Source of the DNA: Bacillota bacterium
Lineage (GTDB): Bacteria; Bacillota; Limnochordia; Darwinibacteriales; Darwinibacteriaceae
Reading direction: 5' to 3'
NCBI GenBank assembly: GCA_012521295.1
Contig: JAAYMS010000064.1
Location: 1 to 37,190, forward strand
Length of the DNA: 37,190 nucleotides
Shown here: positions 33,498 to 37,190 of the stretch, in pieces
How the letters are laid out: each line of letters opens with the position of its first letter
How positions within the stretch are numbered: position 1 is the first letter of the stretch
Program-made: the position numbers and the translations under genes
Notes under the pieces: model-generated
Seen by the model: only the letters and a program-made list of their open reading frames with translations
Told to the model about the DNA's origin: nothing
Databases searched by the model: none

Positions 33498-34823
33498 TTG
33501 ATAGCTAAGACATTTCCGCGGGGTGGTTCTGAGATTCCACACCGGAAAGAGGCTACTGAGCATAAACCTATTGTGACTTTGGCTCCACCGCAGTTTGTGG
33601 TTATCCCATTGCGGCAGCATATTGGGGCACCCTGCAAGCCTTTAGTAGCAGTAGGTGATTATGTCAAAATGGGACAGAAGATTGGTGACACTGATCAGTT
33701 TGTCAGTGCACCTGTCCATGCTAGTGTCTCTGGTACAGTAACAGCTATTGAGGAGCGGGTCCTCCTGAATGGCAGCAAGTGTTTGGCTGTTGTGATTGAA
33801 AATGACGGCAAGGATGAAAGACACGTCTATCCAACTAAGCCAGTTGATAAGATGTCTGCAGAGTCTATCCGGCAGGCTGTTCGTGAGGCTGGTATCGTTG
33901 GTATGGGCGGGGCTGGGTTCCCCACACATATTAAGCTCAATCCCCCTAAGCCTGTTGATACAGTGATCATCAACGGCGCAGAGTGTGAGCCGTACCTCAC
34001 CTGCGATCACCGCCTTATGGTGGAGCAGGCAGAAGCTTTGGTTGAAGGAACAAAGGCAATCATGAAGGCCGTTGGGGCTGAACGTGGCATTTTGGGTATT
34101 GAAGCGAACAAGCCCGACGCTATTGAAGCAGTGCGGGACATGATTGGCGACGCTCCTTCTTTGTCTGTAACCGTTCTGCAGGTACGTTATCCACAGGGAG
34201 CAGAGAAGCAGCTGATAAAGGCAGCTGTCAATCGTGAAGTCCCATCTGGTAAACTGCCGGCCGAAGTAGGCTGTGTGGTCAGCAATGTGCATACAGCAAT
34301 CAGCATTTATGAGGCCCTGACTAAAGGAATTGCCTCGTATGAACGCGTTGTGACAGTCAGCGGTGGTGCTGTAGTAGACCCGCGTAACGTTCGTGTGCGG
34401 ATTGGTACACCTCTGCAGGCTCTGCTGGACTTCTGTGGCGGGACCTTGGGCGAGCCTGCAGTAATTGTAGGCGGCGGCCCTATGACAGGCCCACCAGTAG
34501 CATCTTTAGAAGCACCAGTAGTCAAGAATCTGTCTGGGATTCTCGCCTTAACCGCTGAGGAAGTAGGCTTTGATGAAAACCGTCCATGTATTCGCTGCGC
34601 ACGATGCGTGAATGTATGTCCTATGGGCCTTACTCCAAATATGCTTGGAGCCTTGTCGCACCACGGCAGGTTTTCGCAGGCGGCATCCATAGGCTTGATG
34701 GATTGCATTGAATGTGGACTGTGTTCTTTTGCATGTCCATCGAAACGCGCTTTGGTGACGTGGATTAAGGAAGGCAAAGCTGGATGGCAGGCGGAAAGGG
34801 CGGCCGCACAGGCGGCGAAGTAG
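33498..34823 (+). CDS. rnfC: Rnf electron transport complex subunit C
   Basis: 'FVVIPLRQHIGAPCKPLVAVGDYVKMGQKIG', 'GMGGAGFPTHIKLN', 'NGAECEPYLTCDHRLM', two [4Fe-4S] motifs 'CIRCARCVNVCP' and 'CIECGLCSFACP'. Confidence 0.97.
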   Translation: MIAKTFPRGGSEIPHRKEATEHKPIVTLAPPQFVVIPLRQHIGAPCKPLVAVGDYVKMGQKIGDTDQFVSAPVHASVSGTVTAIEERVLLNGSKCLAVVIENDGKDERHVYPTKPVDKMSAESIRQAVREAGIVGMGGAGFPTHIKLNPPKPVDTVIINGAECEPYLTCDHRLMVEQAEALVEGTKAIMKAVGAERGILGIEANKPDAIEAVRDMIGDAPSLSVTVLQVRYPQGAEKQLIKAAVNREVPSGKLPAEVGCVVSNVHTAISIYEALTKGIASYERVVTVSGGAVVDPRNVRVRIGTPLQALLDFCGGTLGEPAVIVGGGPMTGPPVASLEAPVVKNLSGILALTAEEVGFDENRPCIRCARCVNVCPMGLTPNMLGALSHHGRFSQAASIGLMDCIECGLCSFACPSKRALVTWIKEGKAGWQAERAAAQAAK

Positions 34824-34847
34824 AAAGCGGTTGAGGGAGTGGAGAGC

Positions 34848-37190
34848 ATGGAAAGACGAACGGGTCCTTATTTACGTAGTCCGGTAACTATAGAGAGTAC
34901 GATGCGCGATGTGTTGATTTCACTGCTACCTGCGCTCGCAGCTGGAGTTGTCTTCTTTGGCCTTCGGGCTTTGTGGCTAGTGATCCTCAGCACTGCAGCA
35001 GCGATGGTTACAGAAATGCTGCTCTTGAGGCGGCCCTTTACACGAGAGGGTTTGTTTGGAGACGGAAGTGCTGCCGTTACAGGTGTGTTGGTGGGATTAA
35101 TTCTGCCGTCAACAGCGTCCTGGTGGGTTCCAGTAGTGGGCAGCATCATAGCCATTGCTGTTGTTAAGCTGCCTTTTGGTGGATTGGGTTATAACATCTT
35201 TAACCCCGCTTTGGGAGCAAGGGCAATTCTTCTGTTAGCCTTTACGTCTCAAATGGTGCGCTTTGCGCTGCCTTTTGATACGGTTACTGGTGCCACACCC
35301 CTACTTACCATGACTAGTTTCGATTGGTCACTCATATGGGGTAATGTGGGCGGCAGTATTGGCGAAACCTCTGTTATTGCCATCCTTTTGGGAGCAGCCT
35401 ACCTGTTCTATAAAGGGCATATTGATTGGCGGATTCCGGTAGGTTACGTTGGCGCAGCCTTTGTCATGGCTCTTTTGTGGGGATTGAACCCCTGGATTAC
35501 AGTTTTTGCAGGCGGCCTTTTGTTTGGTGCGGTCTTCATGGCCACCGACATGGTTACCTCGCCGGTTACTCCCATGGGGCAGCTTTTGTTCGGAATTGGC
35601 TGTGGTGTGCTCACGGTTTTCATCCGTAAGTTCACATCGCTACCTGAAGGCGTTACCTTTGCAATTCTAGGCATGAACGCGTTAGTGCCTATTTTAGACA
35701 AACTTACTATGCCTCAGCGCTTTGGTGTTGGTATCCCTCGTGAACAGCGGTTCCAGGGTACCGCAGTGGGTGTAGTTGTGACTGCTGCTGTTGTTCTGCT
35801 AGCAGTAATCATCGCCACCCCAGGTCAAGAAATACAGCCTGTGTTCAGCGGCCCTCATTATCTGCCCATTGTTGAGATGTTAGGTACAAGCGATTATTCG
35901 GTTGAGGAGATCAATGGTACCCGCTACTATACCGTGCGAGATGGCGAAGGAACCCTCAAGGCTGCGGTATTTGCAGCTGAGCAGCGGGGCTTCCATGGGC
36001 CGATCCAATTCTTAGTTGCCCTTGACGATCAGTTTGCTATCACTGATCTGCGGGTCTTGGAACATAAGGAAGACCCCGGTTTGGGTGCCTTGGTTGCCAA
36101 GCCTGATTTCTTATCCCAATTTGTCGGGCTTAATGTAGACAGTGCTTTCAGTTTGGGCACAGACGTTGATGGGATTTCTGGCGCAACTATTTCTTCGAGA
36201 GCAATGGCCACAGGTGTGCGCCGCGCTCTAGAAGGATTTATGGATGCCTTCTTCCCGACGACAGAAGCAGCAGCTGGATGGTCCGACGGGGTTTATACCG
36301 GAGTTGCTGACTCCTTCGGTGGTCCGCTTACTGTAGAAGTAGTCGTTACGAACGGTCAAATTGCAGATGTCCGAGTCCTTTCTAGTTCTGATACACCTGG
36401 TATTTCTGACGGTGCAATTGCCAATGTTCCTGGCCGGATAGTGGCTGCTAATAGTCCAAAGGTTGATGCATATTCTGGCGCCACTGTAACTAGTGAAGCG
36501 ATTATGAGCGCTGTCGAAAAAGCATTGTCGCAGGCAGCGGCTGATGTGATGGCAGGTTGGCCTGATGGCACCTATACAGGCAGTGCAGCTGGTTTCAGCG
36601 GTCAGGTTGAGGTAGAAGTAACCGTAAGCGGCGGCCAAATCATTGATGTAAGAGTTGTCTCTCATTCTGATACGCCTGGCATCTCTGACTCGGCAATCAA
36701 CGCCATCCCAGGGCGCATTGTAGAGGCAAACAGCCCCGACGTTGATGTTGTCAGCGGTGCAACTTATACAAGTGAAGGTATTATCGCAGCCGTGCGTAAT
36801 GCGCTTGATTCACAAGCTTCAGCTGGGGAGGCTCCAGCAGAGCAACCAAGCTCAGCTGTAGGATTTGACATCAAAGTTTCTGATGGTACCTACCGTGCTG
36901 TGGGTAAGGGCTTTGGCGGTGACTTGGTTGTTGATGTAACAGTGGCAGGTGGCAAGATCAATGCTATCTCGGTTGTTGAGCATGCAGACACACCATTCTT
37001 AGCCGATCCAGCGATCGAGGCTCTTGTACCGGCAATCCTTGATGCTCAGGGTGTTGTGGACGTATACAGCGGTGCTACCATGACCAGTAAAGGCCTGTTT
37101 GAAGCTGTAGAGAAGGCTGTCAGCGGCGCAGGTGAAGCTGAAGTTGCTGCGAAGGTCGAGCCTTTCGATATTAAGGTCTCTGACGGTACC
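34848..37190 (+). CDS. RnfD-RnfG fusion with additional tandem FMN-binding domains (3' truncated by window edge; 781 codons without a stop)
   Basis: Translated by hand from ATG 34848 to 37190. RnfD part 'MERRTGPYLRSPVTIESTMRDVLISLLPALAAGVVFFGLRAL...FDTVTGATPLLTM...ILGMNALVPILDKLTMPQRFG'; RnfG part 'FQGTAVGVVVTAAVVLLAVIIA...EHKEDPGLGALVAKPDFLSQFVGL...DVDGISGATISSRAMATGVRRAL'; then repeats such as 'DGVYTGVADSFGGPLTVEVVVTNGQIADVRVLSSSDTPGISDGAIANVPGRIVAANSPKVDAYSGATVTSEAIMSAVEKAL'. Absent from the ORF track, apparently because no stop occurs in the window. Confidence 0.93.
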   Translation, partial: MERRTGPYLRSPVTIESTMRDVLISLLPALAAGVVFFGLRALWLVILSTAAAMVTEMLLLRRPFTREGLFGDGSAAVTGVLVGLILPSTASWWVPVVGSIIAIAVVKLPFGGLGYNIFNPALGARAILLLAFTSQMVRFALPFDTVTGATPLLTMTSFDWSLIWGNVGGSIGETSVIAILLGAAYLFYKGHIDWRIPVGYVGAAFVMALLWGLNPWITVFAGGLLFGAVFMATDMVTSPVTPMGQLLFGIGCGVLTVFIRKFTSLPEGVTFAILGMNALVPILDKLTMPQRFGVGIPREQRFQGTAVGVVVTAAVVLLAVIIATPGQEIQPVFSGPHYLPIVEMLGTSDYSVEEINGTRYYTVRDGEGTLKAAVFAAEQRGFHGPIQFLVALDDQFAITDLRVLEHKEDPGLGALVAKPDFLSQFVGLNVDSAFSLGTDVDGISGATISSRAMATGVRRALEGFMDAFFPTTEAAAGWSDGVYTGVADSFGGPLTVEVVVTNGQIADVRVLSSSDTPGISDGAIANVPGRIVAANSPKVDAYSGATVTSEAIMSAVEKALSQAAADVMAGWPDGTYTGSAAGFSGQVEVEVTVSGGQIIDVRVVSHSDTPGISDSAINAIPGRIVEANSPDVDVVSGATYTSEGIIAAVRNALDSQASAGEAPAEQPSSAVGFDIKVSDGTYRAVGKGFGGDLVVDVTVAGGKINAISVVEHADTPFLADPAIEALVPAILDAQGVVDVYSGATMTSKGLFEAVEKAVSGAGEAEVAAKVEPFDIKVSDGT
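36277..37190 (+). repeat. Tandem FMN-binding domain repeats (3 complete, 4th starting at window edge)
   Basis: Protein-level repeats with [YV]SGATxTS at 36474, 36753 and 37068 and 'FDIKVSDGT' recurring exactly 300 nt apart (36864 and 37164). Confidence 0.88.

Follow-up and report, generated by a model that had tools for sequence, protein, structure and literature searches.

The fused RnfD–RnfG gene and its surroundings

The window analysed here is a stretch of 37,190 nucleotides that makes up the whole of one contig (G000:C57) in a 2.3 Mb, 186-contig assembly, and its right-hand end carries the beginning of an rnf-type operon on the forward strand. The operon opens with rnfC (33498..34823), which encodes an NADH/FMN module and two [4Fe-4S] sites and matches TIGR01945 at 521 bits (cut-off 246) and 9eri_C with an E-value of 3e-126. 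A single frame follows (34848..37190), starting at an ATG at 34848—or possibly at a GTG at 34839—and staying free of stops for 781 codons, up to the window edge; re-reading of the frame gave the same result as the preliminary description. That description had also placed RnfD, RnfG and a series of FMN_bind repeats in one polypeptide, and profile searches agreed: Pfam returned NQR2_RnfD_RnfE (PF03116) at aa 5–293 (E 1e-98) and four FMN_bind stretches on the same chain, which passed both NCBIfam cut-offs, with 249.7 bits for TIGR01946 (rnfD; cut-off 207) and 156.4 bits for TIGR01947 (rnfG; cut-off 102).

The RnfD domain (34860..35726) aligns with 7zc6_D (E 5e-75) and contains a predicted FMN-carrying threonine, Thr150, in the motif DTVTGATP (codon 35295..35297). 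Directly after its C-terminus, the sequence and the junction alignment place the one transmembrane anchor of the RnfG domain (35760..35819), followed by an FMN domain (35919..36239; aa 358–464) with a flavinylation motif in which the codon for the flavin Thr447 occupies 36186–36188. Three further FMN_bind repeats were recognised by Pfam and by motif, with predicted flavin threonines at positions 546 (36267..36530), 639 (36561..36809) and 744 (36861..37121), making four complete FMN_bind domains within the window when that of RnfG is included; only the start of another (37167..37190) precedes the contig end. In an AlphaFold model of the fusion the FMN domains were good (pLDDT about 80) and one resembled domain 1 of CbFMN4 (TM 0.87); the membrane part was mostly below pLDDT 50, so no distances were taken from the model. 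A separate RnfG initiated at the in-frame ATG at 35709, which had been put forward as an option, is unlikely and was rejected because this methionine is not conserved and lies inside the conserved C-terminus of RnfD.

The window ends at 37,190 because the assembly broke within the FMN repeat array. The frame continues on contig C41 (L011 3–350), which begins within an FMN repeat and holds the end of that repeat and one last complete FMN_bind repeat before the stop codon at base 350; an rnfE-like gene (L011 352–939) and an rnfA-like gene (L011 932–1462) come next. Whether rnfB lies downstream of the fusion had been raised as a point to check; none follows the rnfA-like gene on C41, where we found comEA, comEC, holA-like, rpsT-like and gpr-like genes (these non-rnf names were read from the sequences). 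We regard the two contigs as neighbours because several relatives carry the genes to the left of rnfC and to the right of rnfA on one contig and in the same order (L089, L097, L099, L103, L106, L112, L113, L115). The facing ends of C57 and C41 agree at 87 of 98 bases and most likely represent different copies of the repeat, unless strain variation caused the mismatches, so the array would comprise at least six FMN domains (that of RnfG and at least five more), a figure to be read as a minimum for this genome. Gap-free relatives have two to six FMN_bind domains per fusion, a count that leaves out the 1288-aa frame of G011, which has an assembly gap of N inside it.

A survey of homologues found the junction fused and uninterrupted by stops in the genomes of 28 relatives belonging to four families (f1, f3, f4, f5), so that, with the window included, every one of the 29 frames across the RnfD/RnfG junction is fused; nearly all of the records compared are draft genomes. 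In a phylogenetic tree, the RnfD domains of the fusion type form a single clade (support 98/98) apart from canonical RnfD. A lost stop codon or a chimeric contig, as might be suspected in a fragmented metagenome-assembled genome whose window ends in a repeat, is refuted as the source of the fusion and has a negligible chance of being correct, because the comparison confirms the same stop-free junction, gene order and flanks in independently assembled genomes.

RnfE and RnfA without cluster ligands

The products of the rnfE-like and rnfA-like genes match Rnf-Nqr (PF02508) and the RnfE and RnfA chains of known structure, and alignment to these PDB chains allowed us to follow the four cysteine ligands of the intramembrane [2Fe-2S] cluster. 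C25 of RnfE is replaced by Val or Ala and C108 by Gly, Ala, Asp, Ser or Glu in all 17 variant sequences, while C25 of RnfA is replaced by Tyr and C113 by Ser, Thr or Gly in 16/16. All four are kept in every one of ten canonical RnfA/RnfE pairs from the same class, a reference set that includes the pair on contig C115 of the window genome. Residues that line the ion path in RnfA and RnfE of A. woodii are likewise invariant or nearly so in the ten canonical pairs, and most are scattered or lost in the variant, with Q85 and T110 of RnfA retained in 0/16 sequences. No rnfB occurs in any complete variant cluster read; it is present in all nine canonical clusters readable throughout. As judged from these replacements, the [2Fe-2S] cluster, which connects ferredoxin with RnfG and powers the pump in Rnf, can no longer be bound by the variant RnfA and RnfE.

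The tyrosine that occupies a cluster-cysteine position in RnfA is itself invariant, within the motif GLGxYAL, in all 16 sequences (L011 932–1462 and relatives). Both variant proteins are under purifying selection (dN/dS about 0.04–0.17), so they must still do something, and their retention without the cluster could mean that they have taken on another role.

On the NADH side, RnfC has all eight Fe-S cysteines in 28/28 orthologues and retains the GxGGAGFP motif, and the flavin threonine of RnfD is conserved in 29/29 sequences, as are the equivalents of Asn124, Glu185 and Asp248. The NADH branch is thus intact, whereas the ferredoxin branch has gone. The preliminary description had pictured a multi-flavin arm extending from an Rnf pump: the arm and the fusion are real, but, because rnfB and the cluster ligands of RnfA and RnfE have been lost, the arm extends from a derived NADH branch and not from a working ferredoxin:NAD+ pump.

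The window genome also encodes a canonical rnfCDGEA set, on C115, and one rnfB; C115 ends just past rnfA, and RnfB adjoins apbE on C49. An RnfB above the family cut-off occurs as a single copy per genome in 15 of 16 genomes, mostly on the contig with canonical rnf genes. The fusion contains flavinylation motifs, and a search for an apbE gene beside it had been suggested; the genome does have a single apbE, but next to canonical rnf genes and not next to the fusion operon. One relative, G013 (1.7 Mb, 95% complete), has the variant operon with neither an over-cut-off RnfB nor ApbE, which reflects a gap in the bin or a real loss. We set it aside as a natural case of life without canonical Rnf because, with apbE missing too, a bin that is 95% complete may simply have missed the canonical rnf–apbE locus.

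We detected cluster-less RnfA in 31 of the order's 37 genomes (the remaining six may be without it or may be fragmented) and in no genome among 36 others of the class; when 300 genomes were drawn from the phylum, every match belonged to the order. A scan of approximately 85,000 species, based on peptide patterns that limit its sensitivity, returned 27 loci, all of them metagenome-assembled or uncultured records by title and one of them Limnochordia. Within these searches, the variant Rnf appears to be confined to one order.

Comparison with known Rnf and Nqr systems

Canonical Rnf (rnfCDGEAB; A. woodii 9eri, C. tetanomorphum 7zc6) has homologous RnfC, RnfD, RnfG, RnfE and RnfA encoded in the same order and shares the NADH-side cofactor residues with the variant, which differs in the absence of RnfB and of the four RnfA/RnfE cysteines, in the joining of RnfD to RnfG and in the extra FMN domains. 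Neither of the last two features is as foreign to Rnf as first supposed, when separate RnfD and RnfG proteins and a single FMN_bind domain on RnfG were taken as the norm. Multi-flavinylated RnfG, with more than one FMN_bind domain and a proposed side path to extracytosolic acceptors similar to that envisaged for the variant, is already published (Meheust et al. 2021, PMC8238504). RnfD–RnfG fusions also occur in otherwise canonical Rnf operons of f9 and f15, two further families in the class (L077–L080); these share the single RnfD–RnfG chain with the variant but, unlike it, retain RnfB and all the RnfA/RnfE cysteines. The fusion by itself is therefore not what is new. The survey in PMC8238504 took an RnfB in the cluster as its criterion for RNF, whereas the variant cluster has none, and in the text of that paper searched we found neither an RnfD–RnfG fusion nor a loss of the ferredoxin branch.

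The Nqr/Rnf-like two-subunit systems (PMC8238504, PMC10979944) resemble the variant in having a single path from NAD(P)H to an extracytosolic flavin and in a proposed direct interaction between RnfD-like and RnfG-like parts. In those systems RnfD carries a fused NAD domain of the NqrF type (PF00175) and has no flavin threonine, while the variant would use RnfC for NADH oxidation, retains the threonine, has its own RnfE and RnfA, and gave no PF00175 match in a Pfam search of the fusion chains.

Na+-NQR is proposed to have arisen from a duplicated rnf operon that lost rnfB (PMC4014512), and in that respect—an Rnf-type operon without rnfB—it parallels the variant. However, Na+-NQR gained NqrF, kept the cluster of its D and E subunits and lost the cofactors of RnfC, and the variant has kept the opposite half: its clusters gave no NqrF-like match and its RnfC, far from cofactor-less, has all its Fe-S cysteines. 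Searches of open-licence papers found no description of an RnfB-less Rnf or of an RnfD–RnfG fusion, nor of an Rnf that lacks RnfB and the RnfA/RnfE cluster while keeping RnfC.

Elsewhere in the window genome, an nqrB-C-D-E-F-like cluster (L014 1737–5589; G000:C170:55736–59588) lies beside an arabinofuranosidase-like gene; the 8 kb read there contains no nqrA/rnfC-like gene, making this a possible NqrA-less Nqr, and similar NqrB-like matches occur in several relatives.

A proposed path from NADH to the outside

In Rnf, electrons pass from ferredoxin through RnfB, the [2Fe-2S] cluster of RnfA and RnfE, RnfG, RnfD and RnfC to NAD+ (PMC9588780, PMC12174285), and A. woodii mutants without the cysteines of that cluster showed neither autotrophic growth nor ferredoxin:NAD+ activity (PMC11889175). 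With RnfB and the cluster missing, RnfC, RnfD and RnfG would be able only to link NAD(H) with the outside, and the fusion complex is probably neither a ferredoxin:NAD+ oxidoreductase nor the kind of sodium pump known from Rnf. We infer, with a probability of roughly two in three, that it is an Rnf paralogue stripped of its ferredoxin and pump half that now serves as a conduit from NADH through RnfC, RnfD and RnfG to the flavin arm.

On this reading the operon would have the form rnfC-rnfD.G.(FMN_bind)n-rnfE-rnfA, with the last two genes of the cluster-less type. NADH would reduce the FMN of RnfC, and electrons would travel by way of its two [4Fe-4S] clusters to the riboflavin and covalent FMN of RnfD and from there to the FMN carried by the tethered RnfG domain; the RnfG and RnfD flavins are less than 5 Å apart in the 7zc6 state (PMC9588780). 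RnfG would pass them along the arm, with its one to five or more additional covalent FMN domains, to an extracytoplasmic acceptor. The cluster-less RnfA and RnfE would form a membrane scaffold, and the tether would suit an RnfG that no longer needs to swing towards them. A three-FMN protein has a potential of −184 mV (PMC10339131), above that of NADH, so outward flow from NADH to the arm would be downhill. Outward electron transfer remains the best guess, but the electron source would differ from the normal Rnf pump assumed at first.

The operon itself contains no acceptor gene, its neighbours being comEA/comEC and housekeeping genes. Two other contigs of the window genome, C94 (L016 382–2783) and C31 (L017 487–2704), each encode an FAD_binding_2 fumarate-reductase-like flavoprotein with a signal-like N-terminus together with a small protein bearing two FMN_bind domains, and these pairs are candidate extracytoplasmic reductases; a lone protein with two FMN_bind domains is encoded on C18 of this genome. 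A conserved secreted fumarate-reductase-like acceptor was dropped from consideration, as close relatives of the C31 protein occur in few genomes of the order.

The same complex might run inwards, with an extracellular reductant or syntrophic partner feeding electrons through the arm, RnfG, RnfD and RnfC to NAD+. Each step in the NADH branch of Rnf can in principle be reversed (PMC9588780), and the titles of several related records point to anaerobic digesters and soda-lake sediment, settings in which electrons could plausibly pass between species. Nevertheless, NAD+ reduction from a multi-FMN protein at about −184 mV (PMC10339131) would be uphill, and the ion-motive part able to drive it appears to have been lost, so we consider this direction unlikely.

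Slightly less probable still is a hybrid Rnf pump in which the fusion borrows canonical RnfB, RnfA and RnfE from elsewhere and the flavin arm forms a side branch. Nearly all of these genomes do encode canonical rnf with RnfB, RnfC and RnfD of the variant are still Rnf-like in sequence, and such a branch would resemble the proposal for multi-flavinylated RnfG in PMC8238504. However, every complete variant cluster has its own linked and selected RnfE and RnfA, so replacement by the canonical pair is improbable.

We give a similarly low weight to the idea that the variant RnfA and RnfE still transport ions, or act as a channel, despite having no [2Fe-2S] cluster, with electron flow through RnfD coupled in a new way. 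It would account for the purifying selection on both proteins and draws on the invariant equivalents of RnfD Asp248, Asn124 and Glu185, proposed Na+ sites in C. tetanomorphum (PMC9588780), but the ion-path residues of A. woodii are not retained, and the A. woodii study concludes, in a section heading, that RnfD serves electron transfer only (PMC11889175).

Returning to the outward conduit, it is an even call whether a single conversion in the order's ancestor turned the redox-driven ion pump into a transmembrane NADH dehydrogenase that no longer pumps and bears a covalent flavin wire, RnfA and RnfE persisting under selection as a cluster-less pseudo-pump.

Rnf and Nqr are models for the coupling of electron flow to ion pumping, and RnfA and RnfE without cluster ligands or ferredoxin input offer a clean comparison for the residues involved in pumping and for other roles of these subunits. 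The fusion also links a defined electron source directly to a multi-flavin protein, one of a class whose roles are said to be largely unclear. If our reading is true, the variant would stand beside Na+-NQR as a second product of an rnf duplication with loss of rnfB, with the opposite half kept, and the loss of the ferredoxin side, together with the joining of a lengthened outer flavin subunit to the membrane subunit, suggests that, in this uncultivated order, a pump has been turned into a wire from NADH to the outside.
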